From a virus: 41,972 nucleotides of DNA. The position numbers and the translations under genes were made by a program. This document shows positions 1-38,278 of this stretch, piece by piece (position 1 is the first letter of the stretch; every line of letters starts with the position of its first letter). The stretch is taken from positions 1-41,972 of IMG/VR virus record IMGVR_UViG_3300050821_003022; one strand, 5' to 3'. The notes beneath the pieces are model-generated. The model made no database searches. It saw nothing but the letters and a program-made list of their open reading frames with translations, and had not been told where the DNA came from.

Positions 1-43
1 TCAACAAGCCCGCCGAGGTGCCACACCACACTTCGTGTGGGCG

Positions 44-319
44 CTACCATTTCTTGTATAACTCTTCTGCAGTTATTGGATCGAAGTGTAGCTCTGAATA
101 AGCCTGATCCCACCACACTTTGATGCCAGGCCATAGAGCTTTGGAATAGTTACCTTGGTGTATGAGTAGTCGTGCTTCTCCAGGACCATCACCTATGATG
201 AAGTCCTCGCCTGGAAGCAGAATAGGCTTGATGCGCATGAGTGTTGAGGCGCGGACGACTGCAGGTGCAGCTGCACACACGAGCATCTGTTGGAGGAAGC
301 TTCTACGAGAGGGGTTCAC
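44..319 (-). CDS. Small Tat-signal protein with capsid-like C-terminus
   Basis: A 91-residue protein. The GTG start is chosen because GGGAG lies 8 nt upstream. Residues 4-10 (SRRSFLQ) fit the twin-arginine consensus, and a short hydrophobic stretch (about 12-22) is followed by a possible cleavage site near VRAS. Residues 60-76 match residues 14-30 of the major capsid protein in this window at 11 of 17 positions (KALWPG, W, Q, YSE). It is the last complete gene of the leftward cluster and follows its upstream neighbour by 3 nt. The role is unknown. Export through Tat would be unusual for a phage protein, so the motif could also act only as a hydrophobic anchor. Confidence 0.7.
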   Translation of the reverse strand: MNPSRRSFLQQMLVCAAAPAVVRASTLMRIKPILLPGEDFIIGDGPGEARLLIHQGNYSKALWPGIKVWWDQAYSELHFDPITAEELYKKW

Positions 320-322
320 TGT

Positions 323-760
323 TCAATCTCCCGCATCGTGGGTGTAGTCATAGCCCTCATTGAAGATACTTTCAATCTCCTTAGAGATGTAGCCACCAGT
401 GGTAGGCCTCGTCTCGGCAGAGTTACTGTGAACTGGACTACCCAACGGCTCGGCATTCTGCCGTAGTGGGTACTCGATATGAGTGTACTTTCCTGCTTTC
501 TCATCGCGCTCAGTTTGGCTGCCTGGAATGGGCTCTGCAGAGTGCCGTAGCATTGCCTTCTGTGCTGCGCGCACACGCTTGTCCTGTTGCTCTTGAGGTG
601 ATACCGTAGGGGTGTTCCAATTTGGCACAGCAGGTGTTTCGAGCAACCGCTGGCGCAATGCACATAGCGCTGGACACGCTCGCTCGAACGCGCTGTGGCT
701 GTCCATGTAGTAAACACGCTTGATTTTGTTCAGCTCTTTGATTAGCTCTGTTGGGCTCAT
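323..760 (-). CDS. Hypothetical phage protein
   Basis: A 145-residue protein that I do not recognise. Its ATG overlaps the TGA of the preceding gene (ATGA), and GGAG lies 8 nt upstream, so the two are translationally coupled. The N-terminal 20 residues are helical and charged (ELIKELNKIKRV); the remainder is hydrophilic with no membrane segment or clear catalytic motif. One copy of the dispersed 17-bp palindrome (613-629) lies inside this gene and encodes PNWN. Other frames over the same bases are open, but this one has the coupled start. Confidence 0.6.
   Translation of the reverse strand: MSPTELIKELNKIKRVYYMDSHSAFERACPALCALRQRLLETPAVPNWNTPTVSPQEQQDKRVRAAQKAMLRHSAEPIPGSQTERDEKAGKYTHIEYPLRQNAEPLGSPVHSNSAETRPTTGGYISKEIESIFNEGYDYTHDAGD
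613..629. repeat. Dispersed 17-bp palindrome, copy A
   Basis: TGTTCCAATTTGGCACA, one of six copies of the consensus TGTWCCAAWTTGGWACA. This one has a single departure (C for A/T in the right half) and is the only copy inside a convincing gene. The left flank GGGG-TG is shared with the copy at 32182-32198 read on the other strand. Probable protein-binding site; the protein is unknown. Confidence 0.6.
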
Positions 761-4781: not shown

Positions 4782-6234
4782 GCTCACCGCAGACCTCATA
4801 GAGGCTTTCGCAGGTATGTTCCTGAGCCCTCGCTATGACTCGCCACAGCCCACTCCTCCATTCCACCGCGAGATGTGGGCCTTATATTGTAGTGACTCTC
4901 CTGCCGTAGCGGTGGCTGCCCCAAGGAACCATGCTAAGAGCACTGGTGGAACGCACGACTTTATTCTAGCAACCGCACTCTTTCGTGCTGAGCCCTATAT
5001 CATCCTCGTGGGTAGTTCCGAGGATATGGCTATCGAGCACCTCAGCGACATTGCCAACGAGCTCTTGGAGAATGAGGAACTTCGTTCCGAGTTTGGTATC
5101 AGCACTTTTGAAACCCAGCAGAAAACTGACATTGTGGTAAGATGTCAGGATGGCTACCTCTTTCGCATCATCGCCAGAGGTGCCGAGCAGAAGATTCGTG
5201 GCCGCAAGTGGATGGGTCGCCGGCCTGGCCTCATTGTGTTCGACGATATTGAGGATGATGAGCAGGTTGAAAGTAGGGACCGCAGGCTGAAGTTTCGGCG
5301 CTGGTTCTTCCGTGCGTGCAAGCAAGCATTGAGGGATGGTGGGAAGATACGCGGTCATGGCACTATCCTTCACGAGGATTCCTTGCTTGCGCGTCTCATG
5401 AAGGATAAAACGTGGCAGACGAAGTGCTGGCGCGCTCACGCAGCGTTTGACGACTTCACAGAGATTCTCTGGCCAGAGAAGTTCCCTGAGAAGCGCCTAC
5501 GTGGCATTAGGCAGGAGTTTATCGAGCAGGGCGACGCAGCGGGTTACTCCCAGGAGTATCTAAACGATCCCTTCGATAACGAAGACCAATACCTCCGTCG
5601 AGATGACTTCGTTAAGATGGAAGACGAGGACCATGACTCGACGAAGGTTATATGTGCCGCTGCAGACCTTGCCACATCTATGGCTCAGAGCGCAGATCGT
5701 ACCTCTATCACCGTGGGCGGCAAGGATCTTGGTAACTTCCTTCATGTGGTGGATCAGAGGAAGGGCAAGTGGCCCTCGGACGTGATTGTGGAGCAGATGT
5801 TCGCTGTGCAGCAGATGTGGACGCCAGATGTCTTCTTCGTGGAGGGCGGTGCTATCTGGAACACACTGGCTCCGATGATCTACAAAGAGATGCAGGAGCG
5901 TGACATCTGGATTAACTTCCAGCCTGTGATGCCTACGAAGGATAAGGCCTCTCGAGGCCGTCCATTCCAGCGGCGCCATCGCGCTAAGTCAATGAAGTTC
6001 GACAAGGAGGCACCTTGGTATGAAGAGTATGAAGCCGAGTTACTTCGATTTACCGGAGTGGGTCAAGCGGTTAGAGATGATCAATTCGATAGCACAGCTC
6101 TCCTTGTACTTGGATTTGAAACTATCTCGAACGTTGAGAAAGATGATCTAATGTCAGAGGATGAGCAGGAGTTCCAGCAGCTCTCACGGGAGTTCCGTGG
6201 CGGTGGTGGCAGGAATACGGTGACTGGATACTAA
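4771..6234 (+). CDS. terL: Terminase large subunit
   Basis: A 487-residue packaging motor ATPase and nuclease. It starts at GTG with GGAG 6 nt upstream. A Walker A-like loop is at 50-58 (APRNHAKST, a deviant form usual for phages), Walker B at 154-163 (LIVFDDIEDD) and a coupling motif at 195-198 (GHGT). The nuclease half shows acidic residues D299 (AAADLATS), E358 (FFVEGG) and an Asp near 444 (QFDSTA), the RNase H-like arrangement of headful and site-specific nucleases. Length and order are normal. It ends directly against the portal gene, as is standard in tailed phages. Confidence 0.93.
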   Translation: MAVKLTADLIEAFAGMFLSPRYDSPQPTPPFHREMWALYCSDSPAVAVAAPRNHAKSTGGTHDFILATALFRAEPYIILVGSSEDMAIEHLSDIANELLENEELRSEFGISTFETQQKTDIVVRCQDGYLFRIIARGAEQKIRGRKWMGRRPGLIVFDDIEDDEQVESRDRRLKFRRWFFRACKQALRDGGKIRGHGTILHEDSLLARLMKDKTWQTKCWRAHAAFDDFTEILWPEKFPEKRLRGIRQEFIEQGDAAGYSQEYLNDPFDNEDQYLRRDDFVKMEDEDHDSTKVICAAADLATSMAQSADRTSITVGGKDLGNFLHVVDQRKGKWPSDVIVEQMFAVQQMWTPDVFFVEGGAIWNTLAPMIYKEMQERDIWINFQPVMPTKDKASRGRPFQRRHRAKSMKFDKEAPWYEEYEAELLRFTGVGQAVRDDQFDSTALLVLGFETISNVEKDDLMSEDEQEFQQLSREFRGGGGRNTVTGY

Positions 6235-8331
6235 ATGTTAGTACTTGACACCAAGCTAAAGATCGACGACGATGCGATTCGCAGCGCGAATCTATGTGAT
6301 CGCTTTAGCGAACGTGACCTCGAGAGAATTGGTGCTTACTGTTGGGAAGGCTACAAGCAGGATAAAGACTCCCGCGCAGCGTGGGAAAGGCGAGTTCAGG
6401 CAGCACTTGACCTTGCGTTGCAAATTCAAAAGGATAAAACCTTCCCCTGGCAGGGAGCCTCTAACGTTGCCTTTCCACTAATCACAATAGCGGCATTACA
6501 ATTCCATGCTCGTGCTTACCCGATGATCGTGCAGAGTCAGGAAGTAGTGAAGTGCCGAGTTCTCGGCGATGACCCTGATGGGCACTTCGCTGACCGCGCG
6601 AGGCGCGTGGGTATGCACATGAGCTACCAGTGCCTCGAAGAGGATGAGAGCTGGGAGGAGCAGCACGACAAGGCACTGATTGCACTACCGATCATGGGCT
6701 GCCTCTTTAAGAAAAGTTACTACTCTGCAGGCGTCCGTCACAACGTGAGTGAGCTTGTTCTGCCCACTGATCTTGTGGTAGACTACTTTGCCAAGTCTGT
6801 CGAGGGTGCAACACGCAAGACGCACATAACGCCACTATTCCGCAACGATATTTACGAGCGCATCTTGCGTGGAACGTTCCGGGATGTGCGAGATCAGAGC
6901 TGGTATAAGAGTGAGTCTACCTGGCCTCAGGACGACACGACAGATGCTCCCACAGATGACCGTCGAGGTCAGATGCCTCCAGAGGGAAGTGCGGAGACTC
7001 CATTCAAGGGACTAGAGCAGCACTGTGACTTGGACCTCGACCAAGATGGCTATGCTGAACCCTACATCATAACCTTCGAGCAAGAGTCCAAATGCGTTCT
7101 TCGTCTCATCACTCGCTTCGATAAGCCTGAGGACGTGGAGCGCACTGAGAGTGGAGAAATAATCTCTATTCGCTCACGTGAGTACTTCACGAAGTACAGT
7201 TTCATTCCTTCCCCTGATGGGAGTATCTATGACATCGGCTTTGGAATTCTACTCGGACCTCTCAACGAAAGTGTTAACTCACTTATCAACCAGCTTATTG
7301 ATGCTGGAACAATGTCTAACACAGCGGGGGGATTCCTTGGCCGTGGTGCAAAGATTCGCGGCGGAGTCTACCAATTCAGCCCCTTCTCCTGGAATCGAGT
7401 TGACTCAACAGGTGATGATCTCAGGAAGAATATATTTCCTCTCCCTGTACGTGACCCCAGTGCGGTACTCTTCAACTTGCTTGCCCTCCTCATCGACTAT
7501 AGCAACCGAGTGAGTGGAAGCACTGATGCAGTGATTGGTGAGAACCCTGGGCAGAATACCCCAGCGGAAACGAATCGCTCGATGGTCGAGCAGGGAACGA
7601 AAATCTACACCGCGGTATTCAAGCGCGTGTGGAGAAGCATGAAACAGGAGTTCAAGAAGCTCTATCTGCTAAACGCAACGTTCCTTCCCTCGAAGAAGCC
7701 ATTCGGCGCTGGGAACTGGATCATGAGAGAAGATTACCTTGGTGATCCAGATATGGTAGTTCCAGTCGCAGACCCCAACGTGGTCTCGGAAACGATAAGG
7801 ATGCAACAGGCTACCGCGGTGAAGCAGAGCGCGATGGTCACTCCAGGGTATAGCATCCCTGATGTGGAGAGAAACTACTTGAAGGCTATGCACATTGAGG
7901 ATATGGCTCGTCTCTATCCTGGACCTGACAAGGTGCCACCGCTGCCTAATCCCAAGGTGAATGTGGAGCAGATGAAACTCCAAGGGAAGCAGATGGAACT
8001 CAAACAGCAGCAGCAAGAGTTCATCGCCAACCTAATGGAGACGAAGCGCCTCAACACAGCCAAGATTCTTGAACTTGAGGCAAGGGCTATGAAGGAAGCC
8101 TCTGAGGCCTCGGCTGAGAGCGCTGGCATCAAGATCAAACAGTTCGATGCTCAGATCAACGCATTGAAAGCTTACAACGAAATGATCTCAGGCAGCTTGG
8201 AACAAATGAAGGAGGGAATGAAAGATGCTGACGCAGGAGCAATGGCAGGAATGGCTGGTGCATCCGGCAACAGTGGCCCTGCGGGAATGGGCCAAGGCCA
8301 GGCAGGACAGCCTCAAGGAGCAATGGGCTGA
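6235..8331 (+). CDS. Portal protein
   Basis: A 698-residue protein beginning on the base after the terminase stop. Its signature near residue 68-78 (FPWQGASNVAF) and the following helical region are typical of the large portal proteins of short-tailed phages; the portal forms the dodecameric ring through which DNA enters and leaves. The C-terminal 125 residues are a Gln/Lys/Glu-rich coiled coil (about 575-660) ending in a Gly/Ala/Gln-rich tail, matching the barrel of P22-like portals. The last 107 nt also encode the start of the next gene in another frame. Confidence 0.88.
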   Translation: MLVLDTKLKIDDDAIRSANLCDRFSERDLERIGAYCWEGYKQDKDSRAAWERRVQAALDLALQIQKDKTFPWQGASNVAFPLITIAALQFHARAYPMIVQSQEVVKCRVLGDDPDGHFADRARRVGMHMSYQCLEEDESWEEQHDKALIALPIMGCLFKKSYYSAGVRHNVSELVLPTDLVVDYFAKSVEGATRKTHITPLFRNDIYERILRGTFRDVRDQSWYKSESTWPQDDTTDAPTDDRRGQMPPEGSAETPFKGLEQHCDLDLDQDGYAEPYIITFEQESKCVLRLITRFDKPEDVERTESGEIISIRSREYFTKYSFIPSPDGSIYDIGFGILLGPLNESVNSLINQLIDAGTMSNTAGGFLGRGAKIRGGVYQFSPFSWNRVDSTGDDLRKNIFPLPVRDPSAVLFNLLALLIDYSNRVSGSTDAVIGENPGQNTPAETNRSMVEQGTKIYTAVFKRVWRSMKQEFKKLYLLNATFLPSKKPFGAGNWIMREDYLGDPDMVVPVADPNVVSETIRMQQATAVKQSAMVTPGYSIPDVERNYLKAMHIEDMARLYPGPDKVPPLPNPKVNVEQMKLQGKQMELKQQQQEFIANLMETKRLNTAKILELEARAMKEASEASAESAGIKIKQFDAQINALKAYNEMISGSLEQMKEGMKDADAGAMAGMAGASGNSGPAGMGQGQAGQPQGAMG

Positions 8332-10769: not shown

Positions 10770-11687
10770 ATGGCAACTGGTGGCGTAATCACAACTGGTA
10801 GTCACCCTAAAGCACTCTGGCCTGGAGTGCACGCATTTTGGGGGCAAGTCTACTCAGAGCACCAAGAAGAATACACGGAGCTATACGACGTAGACTCGTC
10901 TACGATGTCCTACGAGGAAGACGTTCAGATCACTGGCTTTGGACTTGCGCCGGTCAAAGCGGAAGGCGTAAGCGGAAGCTATGACTCGGAAACGCAAGGC
11001 CCGGTAACTCGCTACACGCACCTGGCCTACTTCCTTGGCTACATCGTGACGCATGAAGAGCTTTCGGATAACTTGTACGAGCAGGTTTCGATGCGTCGTG
11101 CAAGAGCGAATGCTTTCTCGATCTGCCAAACAGTCGAGCAGGTTTCGGTGGTTCCCTACAACACCGGCTTCACAACCTACAAAACTGCTGATGCAGTTAC
11201 GTTGTTTAGCACTGCCCACGTTCAAACGCCGGGCGGTACGTACAGCAACGTTCTGAACCCCGGTGCTGACCTCGCGGAAGCCTCCCTTGAGGACATCTGC
11301 GTTCAGATCATGGGTGCGCAGACTGACCGTGGCCTCTTCATCAACATCATGCCTGATTCGCTTCATGTACCTCGCCAAGAGTGGTACAACGCTCAGCGCA
11401 TTACGAAGTCAGTACTTCAGCCAGGTACAGCAAACAACGACCTGAATGCACTGCGTGCTACCAACGCGTTCCCGAAGGGAGTGATGCTCAACCATTACTT
11501 CACCGCCGCGCATGCTTGGTTCGTGAGAACCAACTGTCCCAACGGGGCGAACTTCTTCTGGCGTGAGAAACCCAACTTCGCCAAAGACAATGACTTCGAC
11601 ACCAAGAATGCAAAGGCAGCAACTTACATGCGGTTTGTCTGCGGCGTGACTGACCCTCGGGCCATCTTTGCTAGCAACGGACCCTAA
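10770..11687 (+). CDS. Major capsid protein
   Basis: A 305-residue protein at the expected place after scaffold and decoration genes. It starts with KALWPGV (14-20), followed by an E-rich loop, a spine-helix-like region (ARANAFSICQTVEQ) and a closing beta domain (TYMRFVCGVTDPRA), consistent with the HK97 fold. No N-terminal prohead domain is evident, so it is probably not processed. A hairpin with a GAAA loop and a dispersed palindrome follow in the gap to the next gene. Confidence 0.85.
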   Translation: MATGGVITTGSHPKALWPGVHAFWGQVYSEHQEEYTELYDVDSSTMSYEEDVQITGFGLAPVKAEGVSGSYDSETQGPVTRYTHLAYFLGYIVTHEELSDNLYEQVSMRRARANAFSICQTVEQVSVVPYNTGFTTYKTADAVTLFSTAHVQTPGGTYSNVLNPGADLAEASLEDICVQIMGAQTDRGLFINIMPDSLHVPRQEWYNAQRITKSVLQPGTANNDLNALRATNAFPKGVMLNHYFTAAHAWFVRTNCPNGANFFWREKPNFAKDNDFDTKNAKAATYMRFVCGVTDPRAIFASNGP

Positions 11688-25022: not shown

Positions 25023-25032
25023 CAAGTAAGTG

Positions 25033-26349
25033 ATGAAGATACTTATCATTGACCCTCAGGTTTCGTTCCTTGACCTTGCCATGCGAGCGCAGGACAGTGG
25101 CCATACGGTACGCTTGTATCTACCTCCGATGATGACAGGGAAGAAGAACCCTTCTGGAGATGGTATCGTAGATAAGGTAAGCGCTTGGATGCCTCACATG
25201 AAGTGGGCAGACCTTATCATCTTGGGAGACAATGTTAAGTACGCAGCGGAGCTTGAACAGTTCTTCAAGAAGGGCTATCCCCTGTTCGGGTGTAACCAGC
25301 AAGCGGCCGAACTGGAACTGGATCGGAAGCTTGGAATGGAGGTATTGGAGAAGTTCAAGATTCCTGTCCTTCCATACAAAGTATTTCGCGACTACGACGA
25401 AGCCATTGCCTTTGTTAGCAAAACCAAAAAGGCTTATGCCTCAAAACCCTGGGGTGGTAGTAGTGACAAAGCCCTGTCGTACGTAGCTGACTCTGCAAAG
25501 GATCTTGTGTTCAAGCTAACACAGTGGAAGAAGGAAGGCAAACTGAAGGGTGCCTTCATGCTTCAGGAAAAATGCAAGGGCATCGAGATGGCTGTGGGAG
25601 GCTGGTTTGGTCCTAGTGGTTGGGGAAAGAATCTTTGCGAGAACTTTGAATTCAAGAAACTGCTGAACGATGACCTTGGGCAAAACACAGGTGAGCAGGG
25701 AACAGTGCTTCGCTACGTTCAGAAGTCTAAGCTATTTGACGAAGTGCTCGAGCCAGTCACAGACTACCTTCACGGTCTGAAGTACACTGGCTACGTTGAC
25801 ATGAATGCTATGGTCGAGGAAGGTAAGCCAAAGCCGCTGGAGTTCACTATGCGCTTCGGTGTGCCAACGCAGATCATCCAGAGTGCACTTCATCGAGGCG
25901 ACCCTGTTGAGTGGATGGCTGATCTACTTGAGGGCCGCGACACTCTGCGAGCGAGTGATGACATAGCGCTGGGTGTAGCTATCTATCATGGTGACTTCCC
26001 TCATAGCCATATGACTGGCAAAGAGCTCACAGGAATCCCTATCTATGGTATCACTGCAGGGAACATGGATAACCTACACTTCTTCGAAGTGATGCACGGT
26101 CAGGTTCCACAGGAGACTGCCGGAGGTATCACCTGGGTCAAGGACTATGTGACCGCAGGCGATGAGATCATGATTGTAGTAGGTACTGGGAAGACTGTCG
26201 AAGAGGCCTATGACCGTGCTTACAAAGCTGCTTGGCAGCTGAAGATTCCCTCCAACAAAGGGATGCGTACTGACATAGGCTGTCGCCTCGAGGACGAGTT
26301 GCCTGAACTCCAGAAGCATGGCTATGCAAAGGGGATGCGCTATGGGTAG
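25033..26349 (+). CDS. PurD-like ATP-grasp ligase
   Basis: A 438-residue protein resembling phosphoribosylamine-glycine ligase. The N-terminal Rossmann-like part starts MKILIIDPQVSF; the ATP-grasp core includes YASKPWGGSSDKA and LQEKCKGIEMAV. The signature LEFTMRFGVPTQ (near 277) parallels LEFNVRFGDPE of PurD, and the C-terminal GKTVEEAYDRAYKAAWQLKI then MRTDIG matches PurD's last domain. The Asp of RFGDPE is replaced by Val, and the Gly/Glu substrate site may have changed. It may make a purine precursor or ligate an amino acid in another pathway. ATG preferred over a GTG three bases earlier. Confidence 0.75.
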   Translation: MKILIIDPQVSFLDLAMRAQDSGHTVRLYLPPMMTGKKNPSGDGIVDKVSAWMPHMKWADLIILGDNVKYAAELEQFFKKGYPLFGCNQQAAELELDRKLGMEVLEKFKIPVLPYKVFRDYDEAIAFVSKTKKAYASKPWGGSSDKALSYVADSAKDLVFKLTQWKKEGKLKGAFMLQEKCKGIEMAVGGWFGPSGWGKNLCENFEFKKLLNDDLGQNTGEQGTVLRYVQKSKLFDEVLEPVTDYLHGLKYTGYVDMNAMVEEGKPKPLEFTMRFGVPTQIIQSALHRGDPVEWMADLLEGRDTLRASDDIALGVAIYHGDFPHSHMTGKELTGIPIYGITAGNMDNLHFFEVMHGQVPQETAGGITWVKDYVTAGDEIMIVVGTGKTVEEAYDRAYKAAWQLKIPSNKGMRTDIGCRLEDELPELQKHGYAKGMRYG

Positions 26350-33413: not shown

Positions 33414-34914
33414 TGACCAGCTCCACTAGTTGACGCGCTTCGCTCAAGTCCTTAATGTCGCGCATACCAAGTGGATTGCGTTCTTTGTGGTAGCCTCCCC
33501 AGTTGAAGCCCATCTTCATGTCAGTTGCGATTTTGAAGCTACGACCATTGTAGTGTAGTTCAGGTGAGAGCCTGGCATACACACCTTCTTGTACGAGTTC
33601 AAAGTTGGCACTCATAACTACTGATATCGGTATCTGCATCAAGATAGAATCATGCACCTGTGCAAGAATATCTATATTGTAGCCTCCAACAGCACATAGG
33701 AGTGGATCGTTGTAGATTTGGACCATTCCTTGATTCAAAGAATCCACGACTGTGCTTTGTGGTAGCATGCTATAAGCCGACTTCCACATCTCCGCGCCCC
33801 AAGCATCCATAAATCTCACCCTACGTCCAAAGCAATTGGTCAGTGCACGATCCTTCTGCAACTGCCGCTTGATCCATTCGTAGTAGTTACGGATGCCGGG
33901 ATAGATGCTGTGGTACATCTCCACTATTCGCTTGGCTTCTGCAGGCTCAATCTCATTGATAAGCGCAAACTGATTTGGTCCTTCATCGTAGTTGAGGCCG
34001 TGATTTGACTTCTTCCCACACTGTCTTCCGGACATAGTTCTCGGTAGTGCTGATCCAAACCGTGCAAGAATCTCATCCCCAAAGCGAAGATCATGAATGA
34101 GATCAGGATCACTATTACTTCCCACAAGCTTACTTTCATACTCGATTACCTCCGGTTCCACGCCGAACATCAGTGAAGCAGTGTGAATGTGAGTGTCTTT
34201 GCCAGCCTCCACGACGCTTATCATGTTAGCGTCTTGTGTTAGGTATGCCATGACTACCCACTCTGCTTGTCTCTTGTCAACTTCCCAGAAGATGTAACCA
34301 GGGTCTGCTTGGAGGAACTTCTTGAATTCTTGGGGGAGATTCTGATTGTTAGTCCCTGTCCCAAAAACAGTTTTTGAAGAACTGAGTCTTCCGAATTTGG
34401 TGCCTCGAGGGTTATAACTGCACCGGAGTCGACTATCGGAGTCAAATGCAATGTCAAGGTATGTTCCGTGTAGCTTATTGAGCCCTCGTATGTCTTGGAC
34501 GAGTTTCGCTGCGCGGAGTCCCGGACGCTTGGCTGTTCCGCGACTAATACGCTGAAGAGAGATGTCATCTATAGTTACCTTTCCATCTTTGTAGTAAGGT
34601 TGTATACCAAGCTCACCATAAAAATAAGCTTGGCATTGCTGAGATGAATTTACGTTTAGTTCTCTCCCAACGATCTTGTTTAACTCCTCTTGTCTTTCAG
34701 AAGCAGTTCTAAGAATATCGAGCTTGGTTTCTTCTAGTGCCTTAAGATCAACTCGTATTCCTCGCGCTTGAAGGAACATAAGGGGCTCGATTATATCCTC
34801 AGTCATATCATAAGCGGAATCAAAGCCGCTCTTTAGCTCATCCCAAAACTCGTTATGAGCCTGTAAGGTACACGCTGAATCCAAAGCGTTGTAGCGAAGG
34901 AAGTTATTATCCAT
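33394..34914 (-). CDS. DNA polymerase family A, palm-fingers-thumb part
   Basis: A 506-residue protein with the polymerase half of a family A enzyme. Motif A has D213 (WEVDKRQAEWV), the O-helix motif B reads R297-x3-K301-x3-H305-x3-Y309, and motif C has H421-D422 (AQVHDSI). The residue that selects dideoxy-nucleotides in T7 (Tyr526) and Taq (Phe667) is His305 here. Its first residues carry YNALD (8-12), which is the third proofreading exonuclease motif, whereas the other exonuclease motifs are in the separate gene at 35326-36378. The ATG overlaps the HNH gene by 8 bases. It may act only after assembling with that partner. Confidence 0.85.
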   Translation of the reverse strand: MDNNFLRYNALDSACTLQAHNEFWDELKSGFDSAYDMTEDIIEPLMFLQARGIRVDLKALEETKLDILRTASERQEELNKIVGRELNVNSSQQCQAYFYGELGIQPYYKDGKVTIDDISLQRISRGTAKRPGLRAAKLVQDIRGLNKLHGTYLDIAFDSDSRLRCSYNPRGTKFGRLSSSKTVFGTGTNNQNLPQEFKKFLQADPGYIFWEVDKRQAEWVVMAYLTQDANMISVVEAGKDTHIHTASLMFGVEPEVIEYESKLVGSNSDPDLIHDLRFGDEILARFGSALPRTMSGRQCGKKSNHGLNYDEGPNQFALINEIEPAEAKRIVEMYHSIYPGIRNYYEWIKRQLQKDRALTNCFGRRVRFMDAWGAEMWKSAYSMLPQSTVVDSLNQGMVQIYNDPLLCAVGGYNIDILAQVHDSILMQIPISVVMSANFELVQEGVYARLSPELHYNGRSFKIATDMKMGFNWGGYHKERNPLGMRDIKDLSEARQLVELVSEPKPA

Positions 34915-35329
34915 GAGAAACTTTCAAGAGCTTTACACAAGCCCTACACATTCTTCTACCATCAGTTCTTATGTAGGTATTATCTTCATTAAACTCATGG
35001 CCTCGCTTACAAACAGTTCTAGTAGCATTAAAGCTTTGCTTTCTCTCTGTTGTATCCCTTGAATTGTCCAGATGTGTTCCAAGATATAAGTGATCTGGGT
35101 TTATGCATTTCTTATTATCACACTTATGAAGGACAGATAAACCTACTGGAATGAGCCCATTATGAGCCTCCCAGGACAATCTATGAACCGAACTTGCTAT
35201 TCCGTCGGCTCGCATAATTCCATAGTTATTGCCGGATATAGCGCCCTGCCATAGCCAGCAATTAGTGTCCTCATCTACTATTATTTTAGATAGTAGTTTC
35301 GACTTTACTTGCTCTCGGTAGGTTATCAT
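34907..35329 (-). CDS. HNH homing endonuclease splitting the polymerase
   Basis: A 140-residue HNH nuclease of the AP2/HNH_3 type: CWLWQGA (24-30), HRLSWE (49-54), LHKCDNKKCINPDHL (67-81) and LGTHLDNSRD, then a zinc element CKRGHE plus CRAC (107-131). It sits exactly between the exonuclease and polymerase parts, overlapping the upstream stop by ATGA and the downstream start by ATGGATAA. Homing endonucleases insert in essential genes and spread by cutting empty sites. Confidence 0.88.
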   Translation of the reverse strand: MITYREQVKSKLLSKIIVDEDTNCWLWQGAISGNNYGIMRADGIASSVHRLSWEAHNGLIPVGLSVLHKCDNKKCINPDHLYLGTHLDNSRDTTERKQSFNATRTVCKRGHEFNEDNTYIRTDGRRMCRACVKLLKVSHG

Positions 35330-36889: not shown

Positions 36890-38278
36890 TTAAGCTCCTT
36901 GGGTTTGTTGCTCTTCGTAGGCCTCAAGCGCTGCGAGCATGTCAGCATCGCTTAGCTCCTCGACTTCCTCCTCAGCAGAGCTTTCCTCTCCGTTAAGGTG
37001 CATGGCATCCTGCTCCACGGCTAGCATGAATTTGTCCTTGTACTCGGGGTTGAGGTCCCAGCCGAACACTTTGTTTCCCCTGTTATAGCACGCACGAATC
37101 GTTGCACCGGAGCCGAGGAATGGAACGAGGACTATTCCTGTGGGGTAACAAAACAGGTCCAAGAGTTCTTCGATCAGCAGAACGGGGCGTTCTGTCGGAT
37201 GTATCTTCCTGGCTCCTGCCACGCCGGGAAAGTTGAAAACGTTCAACCTACCACGTTTCAGCATAACGGGGTTTCCTTTGCGGCAGACGAAGAAAGGTTC
37301 ATAGCCTCGAGCGAGATAGATTTCAGGCTGCATCGTTTGTCCGATTTCCTTTGCCCAGATAGCAGGAATCTCGTCAACCTGCCAGCCGGCGAGGCGAAGG
37401 CAGTTTAGTGCATCTTGATGCCAGCTTGGGCCAAACCAGAACACCAGCCACGAGTTGGGAGCTGCCACACGAAAGAGCTCAGTGCTCAGTTTGAGAAGGA
37501 ACTCAGGGTAGGCATCTTCGGAGACTTCCTCGTAGCTCTGTACACTCGAGGTTACTTCTTCGTTGCCACGTTTCTGCTTGTTCAAGTTGATTCCGTAAGG
37601 AGGGTCGCACTCGATGAAGGAGATGTTTCCGTCAGTGGGAAGCTCAGCTAGACCAGCGAACGTATCGCCTATACGATAGTTGGCCTCGGCAACCTTTAGC
37701 ATCTCATGAATCCCTTTAGCAAGGGCATGACCTCCGCTAGCTTGGCGCTCGCGTAGCACTTTGATGATTTGTTCTTCCTCGAGTTTCTTGACTACCTTCT
37801 CCGCATCGTTCGCGGTGTTCAGTTCAGCTAACTCAGGCATAGCCTCGACAGCCTTAGCCATCTTGATAGCGCGGGCTACGTCAGTCACACTGCGACTCAG
37901 TAGCTCGGCAGTTTTCCTGCCAGACCAGTCCAGGTTCTTTTCTTTGTAGAGTCTGTCAATCTCAAGGATGAGCGCATTCTTCTCGCTCCAGGTGAAGTCA
38001 GCACGGAAAGTGTTCTCGATTAGCTCGATCTCGCGGGAGTCGACTTCCTCGCCAGCCTCTCGTATGAGGCAAGGGATTTTCTCCAGCCCAGCCAGAATCG
38101 CTGCACGGACTCTACGTTCACCTGCAAGCAAGTGCATGTTCGAGTCAAGCGTGATAGGTTGGAGCACTCCTTTCTGCCTAATGGACTCAGCAAGGTCCTC
38201 GAGGCCAGTGAATTCCTTACGATAGCGTTCTCCGACGATGATCTTGTCAAGCTGAACAAACTTGAGTTTATTCTCCAC
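36890..38278 (-). CDS. ParB-N domain fused to DNA methyltransferase
   Basis: A 462-residue two-domain protein. Residues 1-95 are a ParB-like nuclease/CTP-binding domain (LAESIRQKGVLQPITL, LAGERRVRAAILAG at 51-64). Residues about 200-425 are an amino-methyltransferase with the catalytic DPPYGI (225-230), a KIHPTERPV segment (358-366) and the AdoMet-binding FLGSGATI (387-394). Motif IV before motif I makes it the beta class (N6-adenine or N4-cytosine). The C-terminus is acidic. Such fusions modify phage DNA, probably protecting it from host restriction. Confidence 0.88.
   Translation of the reverse strand: MENKLKFVQLDKIIVGERYRKEFTGLEDLAESIRQKGVLQPITLDSNMHLLAGERRVRAAILAGLEKIPCLIREAGEEVDSREIELIENTFRADFTWSEKNALILEIDRLYKEKNLDWSGRKTAELLSRSVTDVARAIKMAKAVEAMPELAELNTANDAEKVVKKLEEEQIIKVLRERQASGGHALAKGIHEMLKVAEANYRIGDTFAGLAELPTDGNISFIECDPPYGINLNKQKRGNEEVTSSVQSYEEVSEDAYPEFLLKLSTELFRVAAPNSWLVFWFGPSWHQDALNCLRLAGWQVDEIPAIWAKEIGQTMQPEIYLARGYEPFFVCRKGNPVMLKRGRLNVFNFPGVAGARKIHPTERPVLLIEELLDLFCYPTGIVLVPFLGSGATIRACYNRGNKVFGWDLNPEYKDKFMLAVEQDAMHLNGEESSAEEEVEELSDADMLAALEAYEEQQTQGA

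Follow-up and report, generated by a model that had tools for sequence, protein, structure and literature searches.

The window analyzed here is the whole stretch of 41,972 nucleotides of the IMG/VR virus record IMGVR_UViG_3300050821_003022. Close to its first position, on the minus strand, lies a gene for a protein of 91 amino acids (MNPSRRSFLQQMLVCAAAPAVVRASTLM...KALWPGIKVWWDQAYSELHFDPITAEELYKKW), in which sequence and alignment reveal a Tat-type leader followed by a mimic of the N-terminal arm (N-arm) of the capsid protein. The gene occupies positions 44 to 319, as given in the earlier note, with a GTG start codon at 319 and the stop at 44. A Shine-Dalgarno-like GGGAG (332-328, minus strand) was read 8 nt before the GTG, which itself begins 3 bases past the stop codon of the upstream gene of the same run (323-760, minus strand); this gene encodes 145 amino acids and gave no family match in our scans. 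A hairpin without a T run, CCACAC-GAA-GTGTGG (26-40, minus strand), immediately follows the stop codon of the 91-residue protein, and contig L183 also terminates near it. No terminal repeats were found in the record, and its circularity is therefore without support. With the whole protein as query only a near-identical copy in the IMG/VR contig 3300021479_000079 and capsid genes were found, and with this query none of the capsid-related records showed a homologue of the leader. The protein had no PHROG match at E < 1 and no whole-length match above the curated cut-off in PHROG, Pfam or NCBIfam.

The leader comprises residues 1-28 (SRRSFLQQMLVCAAAPAVVRA STLM; positions 236-319, minus strand) and is conserved in 99 leader proteins. 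It carries SRRSFLQ at residues 4-10, then a hydrophobic stretch and VVRA, with a possible signal cleavage site after A24 (AxA-like VRA). SRRSFL fits the published Tat consensus, so that the twin-arginine motif is present. The Tat signal model PF10518 scored the protein at 13.6 bits, below its curated cut-off of 22.7; the same model matched 21 of 93 members of the leader family at E < 0.1 (best E 1.1e-4), most members lying under the cut-off. The Tat-type leader proposed in the earlier note is thus borne out by the motif and by the relatives, and from the motif we infer that the 91-residue protein would be located at the membrane or reach the periplasm. A lipoprotein reading was dropped by eye, since MLVC has no small residue ahead of the cysteine. 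The leaders share with Tat signal peptides (PF10518, TIGR01409) the SRRxFL motif, the short hydrophobic stretch and the AxA-like end after a basic residue. In contrast to these, they have a constant spacing and, past the presumed cleavage site, a conserved SLM[PKR][VIL], and we know of no such feature in the Tat signals of hosts.

The remainder of the protein, its tail, was compared with the major capsid protein encoded on the plus strand at positions 10770-11687. This capsid protein matched phrog_371 (8.6e-6), and its predicted fold is that of HK97: an AlphaFold2 model built from 34 relatives (mean pLDDT 83.8) matched HK97 (1ohg_A) with an E of 3.8e-10 and resembles HK97-fold capsids and encapsulins. 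Residues 52-88 of the small protein (positions 56-166, minus strand) align with capsid residues 6-39 (HMM E 1.4e-6; own-record search E = 4e-6), and residues 60-76 are identical to capsid residues 14-30 at 11 of 17 positions. The mimicked part is the N-arm helix, residues 13-30 (10806-10859, plus strand), modelled with high confidence from about residue 21. The homology is limited to this arm, and the small protein has no complete A, P and E-loop core; the same part of its tail matched the capsid N-terminus in 43 of 46 capsid-related records. The match of 11 in 17 residues pointed out in the earlier note is real and longer than described. The local score of 84 was reached by none of 5000 shuffled tails (maximum 48), and the next-best ORF of the window scored 41 against the tail. 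The matched stretch is short, which would favor a chance likeness between a Tat-signal protein and a capsid. Nevertheless, the shuffles together with the independent recurrence of such matches in at least four capsid families refute this explanation, and we regard its probability as practically negligible. The DNA of the two segments is identical at 34 of the 51 matched bases (67%), with the same codon at 6 of the 11 identical residues. Consequently the copy is old, in agreement with the earlier note, which had described it as not recent.

In order to define a class independently of the tail, IMG/VR was searched for the leader only (APA[IV]VR[AV]xxLM), using no tail information. The pattern occurs in at least 119 stretches. 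Among the matches listed, nearly all are small ORFs which combine one leader (RRxFL..AAPAIVRASSLMPVK) with very different tails, and the leader consensus is RRxFLxGLxxLxAAPAIVRAxSLM[PKR][VIL]. Neither the spacing between the arginine and LM nor the residue after LM had been asked for by the search pattern. Among the same matches the distance from the first arginine to the end of LM is exactly 24 residues in 96 of 99 distinct proteins, 96 of 99 members have RR or R-x at a constant position, and all 99 have V, I or L as the second residue past LM. The codons of the leader vary freely, and thus the conserved thing is the leader protein and not a DNA cassette. When 84,980 bacterial and archaeal genomes were searched with a stricter related pattern, it was present in only nine stretches; eight are leader genes of the class and the ninth is a chance match. 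The leader is therefore essentially phage-specific. A tblastn search of cultivated phages and plasmids with the leader only returned nothing, a weak absence for which low-complexity masking is a possible cause; whole leader proteins searched against cultivated phages matched coat-protein genes at the tail, or nothing, and no leader gene. In the collections searched, proteins with a leader and a capsid segment are described in no open-access paper, no family model and no cultivated phage. The joining of a strongly conserved export-type leader to part of the phage's head protein recurs in many uncultivated phages, that of the window included, and is apparently undescribed. Two further features of the class were seen. 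One contig (L269, genome G054) carries overlapping leader genes in tandem (5701-5970 and 5964-6290), one tail matching residues 291-338 and the other residues 51-97 of a single capsid protein, and seven related leader proteins (L103, L122, L135, L150, L156, L181 and L201) have in common a conserved tail of about 115-130 amino acids without known relative.

The origin of the tails was investigated in 53 leader genes from 51 contigs (50 fetched leader-bearing contigs and the window). Tails were taken without the leader and compared with the ORFs of their own genome at E ≤ 0.01 with a fixed search space; the contigs are metagenomic, many are incomplete, and the alignments are short. A match was obtained for 13 of the 53 tails; 12 of the 13 targets are at least 250 amino acids long, and 11 matches lie within the first 80 residues. 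Small control genes from the same contigs matched in 11 of 957 cases, only two of them in ORFs of at least 250 amino acids, and one of these two is a leader gene missed by the regular expression. Since the class was defined by its leader alone, the enrichment of capsid proteins was not selected for. When ten target or related ORFs were scanned against PHROGs, one of them (G091) being the target of a leaderless ORF and not of a leader tail, nine proved to be major head proteins (phrog_283, 9953, 212, 1357 and 267) and one a portal (phrog_156). Profiles of all ORF clusters were matched by 24 of 108 tails at E ≤ 1e-3 and by 31 of 108 at 1e-2, compared with none of the 108 reversed tails and 12 of 956 controls, several of which are cut at locus ends. 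Homologues which unite the leader with a capsid segment, as the earlier note had described for a single protein, thus exist. The matched profiles are capsid families, portals (c2, c26) and a head-tail adaptor (c15, phrog_332), nearly all of them head proteins. An independent scan of 93 whole proteins against PHROGs agrees: among the 25 matches listed, all function-annotated families at E < 1e-3 are head or tail families. Pfam models of a tail collar domain (1.5e-13) and of a head-tail connector also matched leader proteins. For three quarters of the tails no source was recognized, and a few are similar to modules of tail collars or fibres. In about one quarter of the class, then, the tail can be recognized as an in-frame piece of a head protein from the phage's own kind; usually this is the major capsid protein, and usually its N-arm. 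Compared with HK97-fold capsids (the five families named above and that of the window), these tails are homologous to a segment of 30-60 residues, usually the N-arm, but lack the capsid core and would be unable to form a shell alone.

The reading frame of the tails was informative. In the five other frames of the tail DNA no match was found in 540 trials, in contrast to 24-36 in frame, and tail pairs of at least about 60% identity gave dN/dS values of 0.16-0.49, indicating purifying selection. Both observations point to selection on the protein. Phage genomes recombine readily and the sources of the tails are common structural genes; the class might accordingly be a functionless by-product of mosaicism, with fragments of abundant genes caught behind a mobile leader. 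Such neutral capture predicts about five out-of-frame or antisense matches for each in-frame match and is strongly disfavored by their absence. Purifying selection likewise speaks against a mosaic by-product, as does the neighborhood of the leader genes: many adjoin terminase and portal genes, terminase being the commoner neighbor, so that the capsid bias is not due to the neighborhood. We therefore consider a mere by-product of recombination very improbable.

Other leader genes have a different setting. Those of G085 and G087 are surrounded by replication genes, with a RecB-like exonuclease and a Sak4-like gene close by, and the same holds for the gene of the window, assuming that the ends of the record join. 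Several other ORFs of these genomes were noted. A leaderless ORF of 89 amino acids in G085 (L349:4074-4343, minus strand), located between the exonuclease gene and the leader gene, matches an internal segment of phrog_283 (positions 255-319). In G091 a leaderless ORF (L366:3115-3441, minus strand) matches residues 46-84 of the phage's own capsid (phrog_267, E 2.8e-6). The window itself contains a small HNH-endonuclease-like ORF (34907-35329, minus strand) that separates two portions of the DNA polymerase region and, by eye, an ORF resembling an ATP-grasp enzyme or a purine ligase (25030-26349, plus strand), which is located among virion genes. Also by eye, the product of 36890-38278 (minus strand) combines a ParB-like N-terminus with a DNA methyltransferase-like domain; it has homologues in G069, G085 and G092.

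The tails were then compared with the capsid of their own phage. Wherever the own family is known, the tail belongs to it (17 of 17; permutation mean 6.5, p < 5e-5), although these cases are less independent than the permutation assumes because phages are related, and independent events are fewer. The own capsid ranked first for 7 of 18 tails, with a mean normalized rank of 0.18, and the tail of the 91-residue protein ranked its own capsid 11th among 34. Tails follow their own capsid above chance, yet often another capsid is closer. The term capsid-derived, used in the earlier note, is consequently supported at the level of the family; the ranking does not support descent from the present capsid gene of the same phage. 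Within the capsid family of the window the segments 3-28, 8-40, 50-72, 55-73 and 76-111 are used, some of these matches being weak (E near 0.01); the use of different segments within one family argues for several events. Across the class the capsid segments include the N-arm, 76-126, 237-319 and 292-338, and portal and adaptor segments also occur. The N-arm tails of capsid family c4 all end at capsid position 40-47, and most of those of family c5 at 56-62.

Conservation is much stronger in the leader, including the residues past the presumed cleavage site, than in the tail, with a lower dN for the leader in most alignable pairs, and the tails come from many sources. Both facts would suit a leader which is itself the active part, for instance by occupying or jamming the Tat translocon or by yielding a conserved exported peptide (SLMPVK), with the tail as a passenger of suitable size. 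A free passenger, however, needs neither purifying selection nor exclusively in-frame matches to head proteins of the same family as those of its phage, and we judge an activity of the leader alone to be unlikely.

The main rival to our preferred reading, ahead of the leader-alone activity, is a membrane docking or assembly factor. Here the leader would be an anchor and the capsid segment would co-assemble with the head lattice or the portal, thereby starting, timing or limiting assembly. Its targets would be the head proteins observed (capsid, portal, head-tail adaptor), the common end points of N-arm tails within a capsid family are in keeping with it, and several leader genes stand beside terminase or portal genes. 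In T4, proheads are initiated at the inner membrane with the portal gp20 and the chaperone gp40 (PMC9958956). The gp40-type chaperones resemble the class in mode of working only, each being a small, presumed membrane protein tied to head proteins; no homology was found, as the 91-residue protein has no match in PHROG at the threshold given above. To our knowledge, gp40 is without a capsid segment. Against an assembly factor, the segments vary between phages and some are internal, the tails are not closest to their own capsid, unlike an interacting pair, the genes of the window, G085 and G087 lie among replication genes, and tails of the collar or fibre type are hard to reconcile with it. On balance we regard an assembly factor as a rather unlikely explanation.

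The reading that we favor, tentatively and at somewhat less than an even chance, is that the proteins of the class are competitive mimics of a head protein targeted to the membrane or the periplasm. The leader would direct its protein to the cytoplasmic membrane, which the protein might also cross by way of the Tat translocon. The tail, as a competitive mimic, could then bind whatever recognizes that stretch of the capsid, for example an immune sensor of the host, a partner in assembly or a competing element, and the bound recognizer would be kept at the membrane or drawn off the capsid protein. The varied segments and the drift from the own capsid fit a decoy for varied recognizers better than a fixed assembly contact, and the place among early genes in some phages also fits a decoy. 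More narrowly, the class might consist of decoys which lure capsid-sensing defences or competing elements away from genuine capsid protein, the Tat-type leader presenting fragments of the phage's own capsid or portal on the membrane or in the periplasm; this we hold to be possible but doubtful. A capsid protein is known to trigger bacterial immunity through Thoeris (PMC12578639). Capsid-sensing systems (Thoeris ThsB1/ThsB2, CapRel, Lit-Gol) read parts of capsid proteins, so that a mimic could act on them; they differ from the class in being host systems, and a capsid-type decoy against such immunity was not found in the open-access papers searched. Several observations speak against a decoy. 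A cytoplasmic decoy would need no Tat leader, and the ORFs with capsid segments in G085 and G091 are leaderless. The tails without recognized source and the few resembling collar or fibre modules count against it as well. Terminase is also a known immune trigger, yet no terminase-derived tail was seen among the tails examined.

Head proteins are recognized by several bacterial immune systems and are targets of hijacking by satellites. Small proteins which recurrently repeat segments of their phage's own head behind an export leader would represent a new use of structural genes. Such a class would make the existence of phage self-decoys a directly testable question, and it accounts in one step for many small phage genes that had no annotation.
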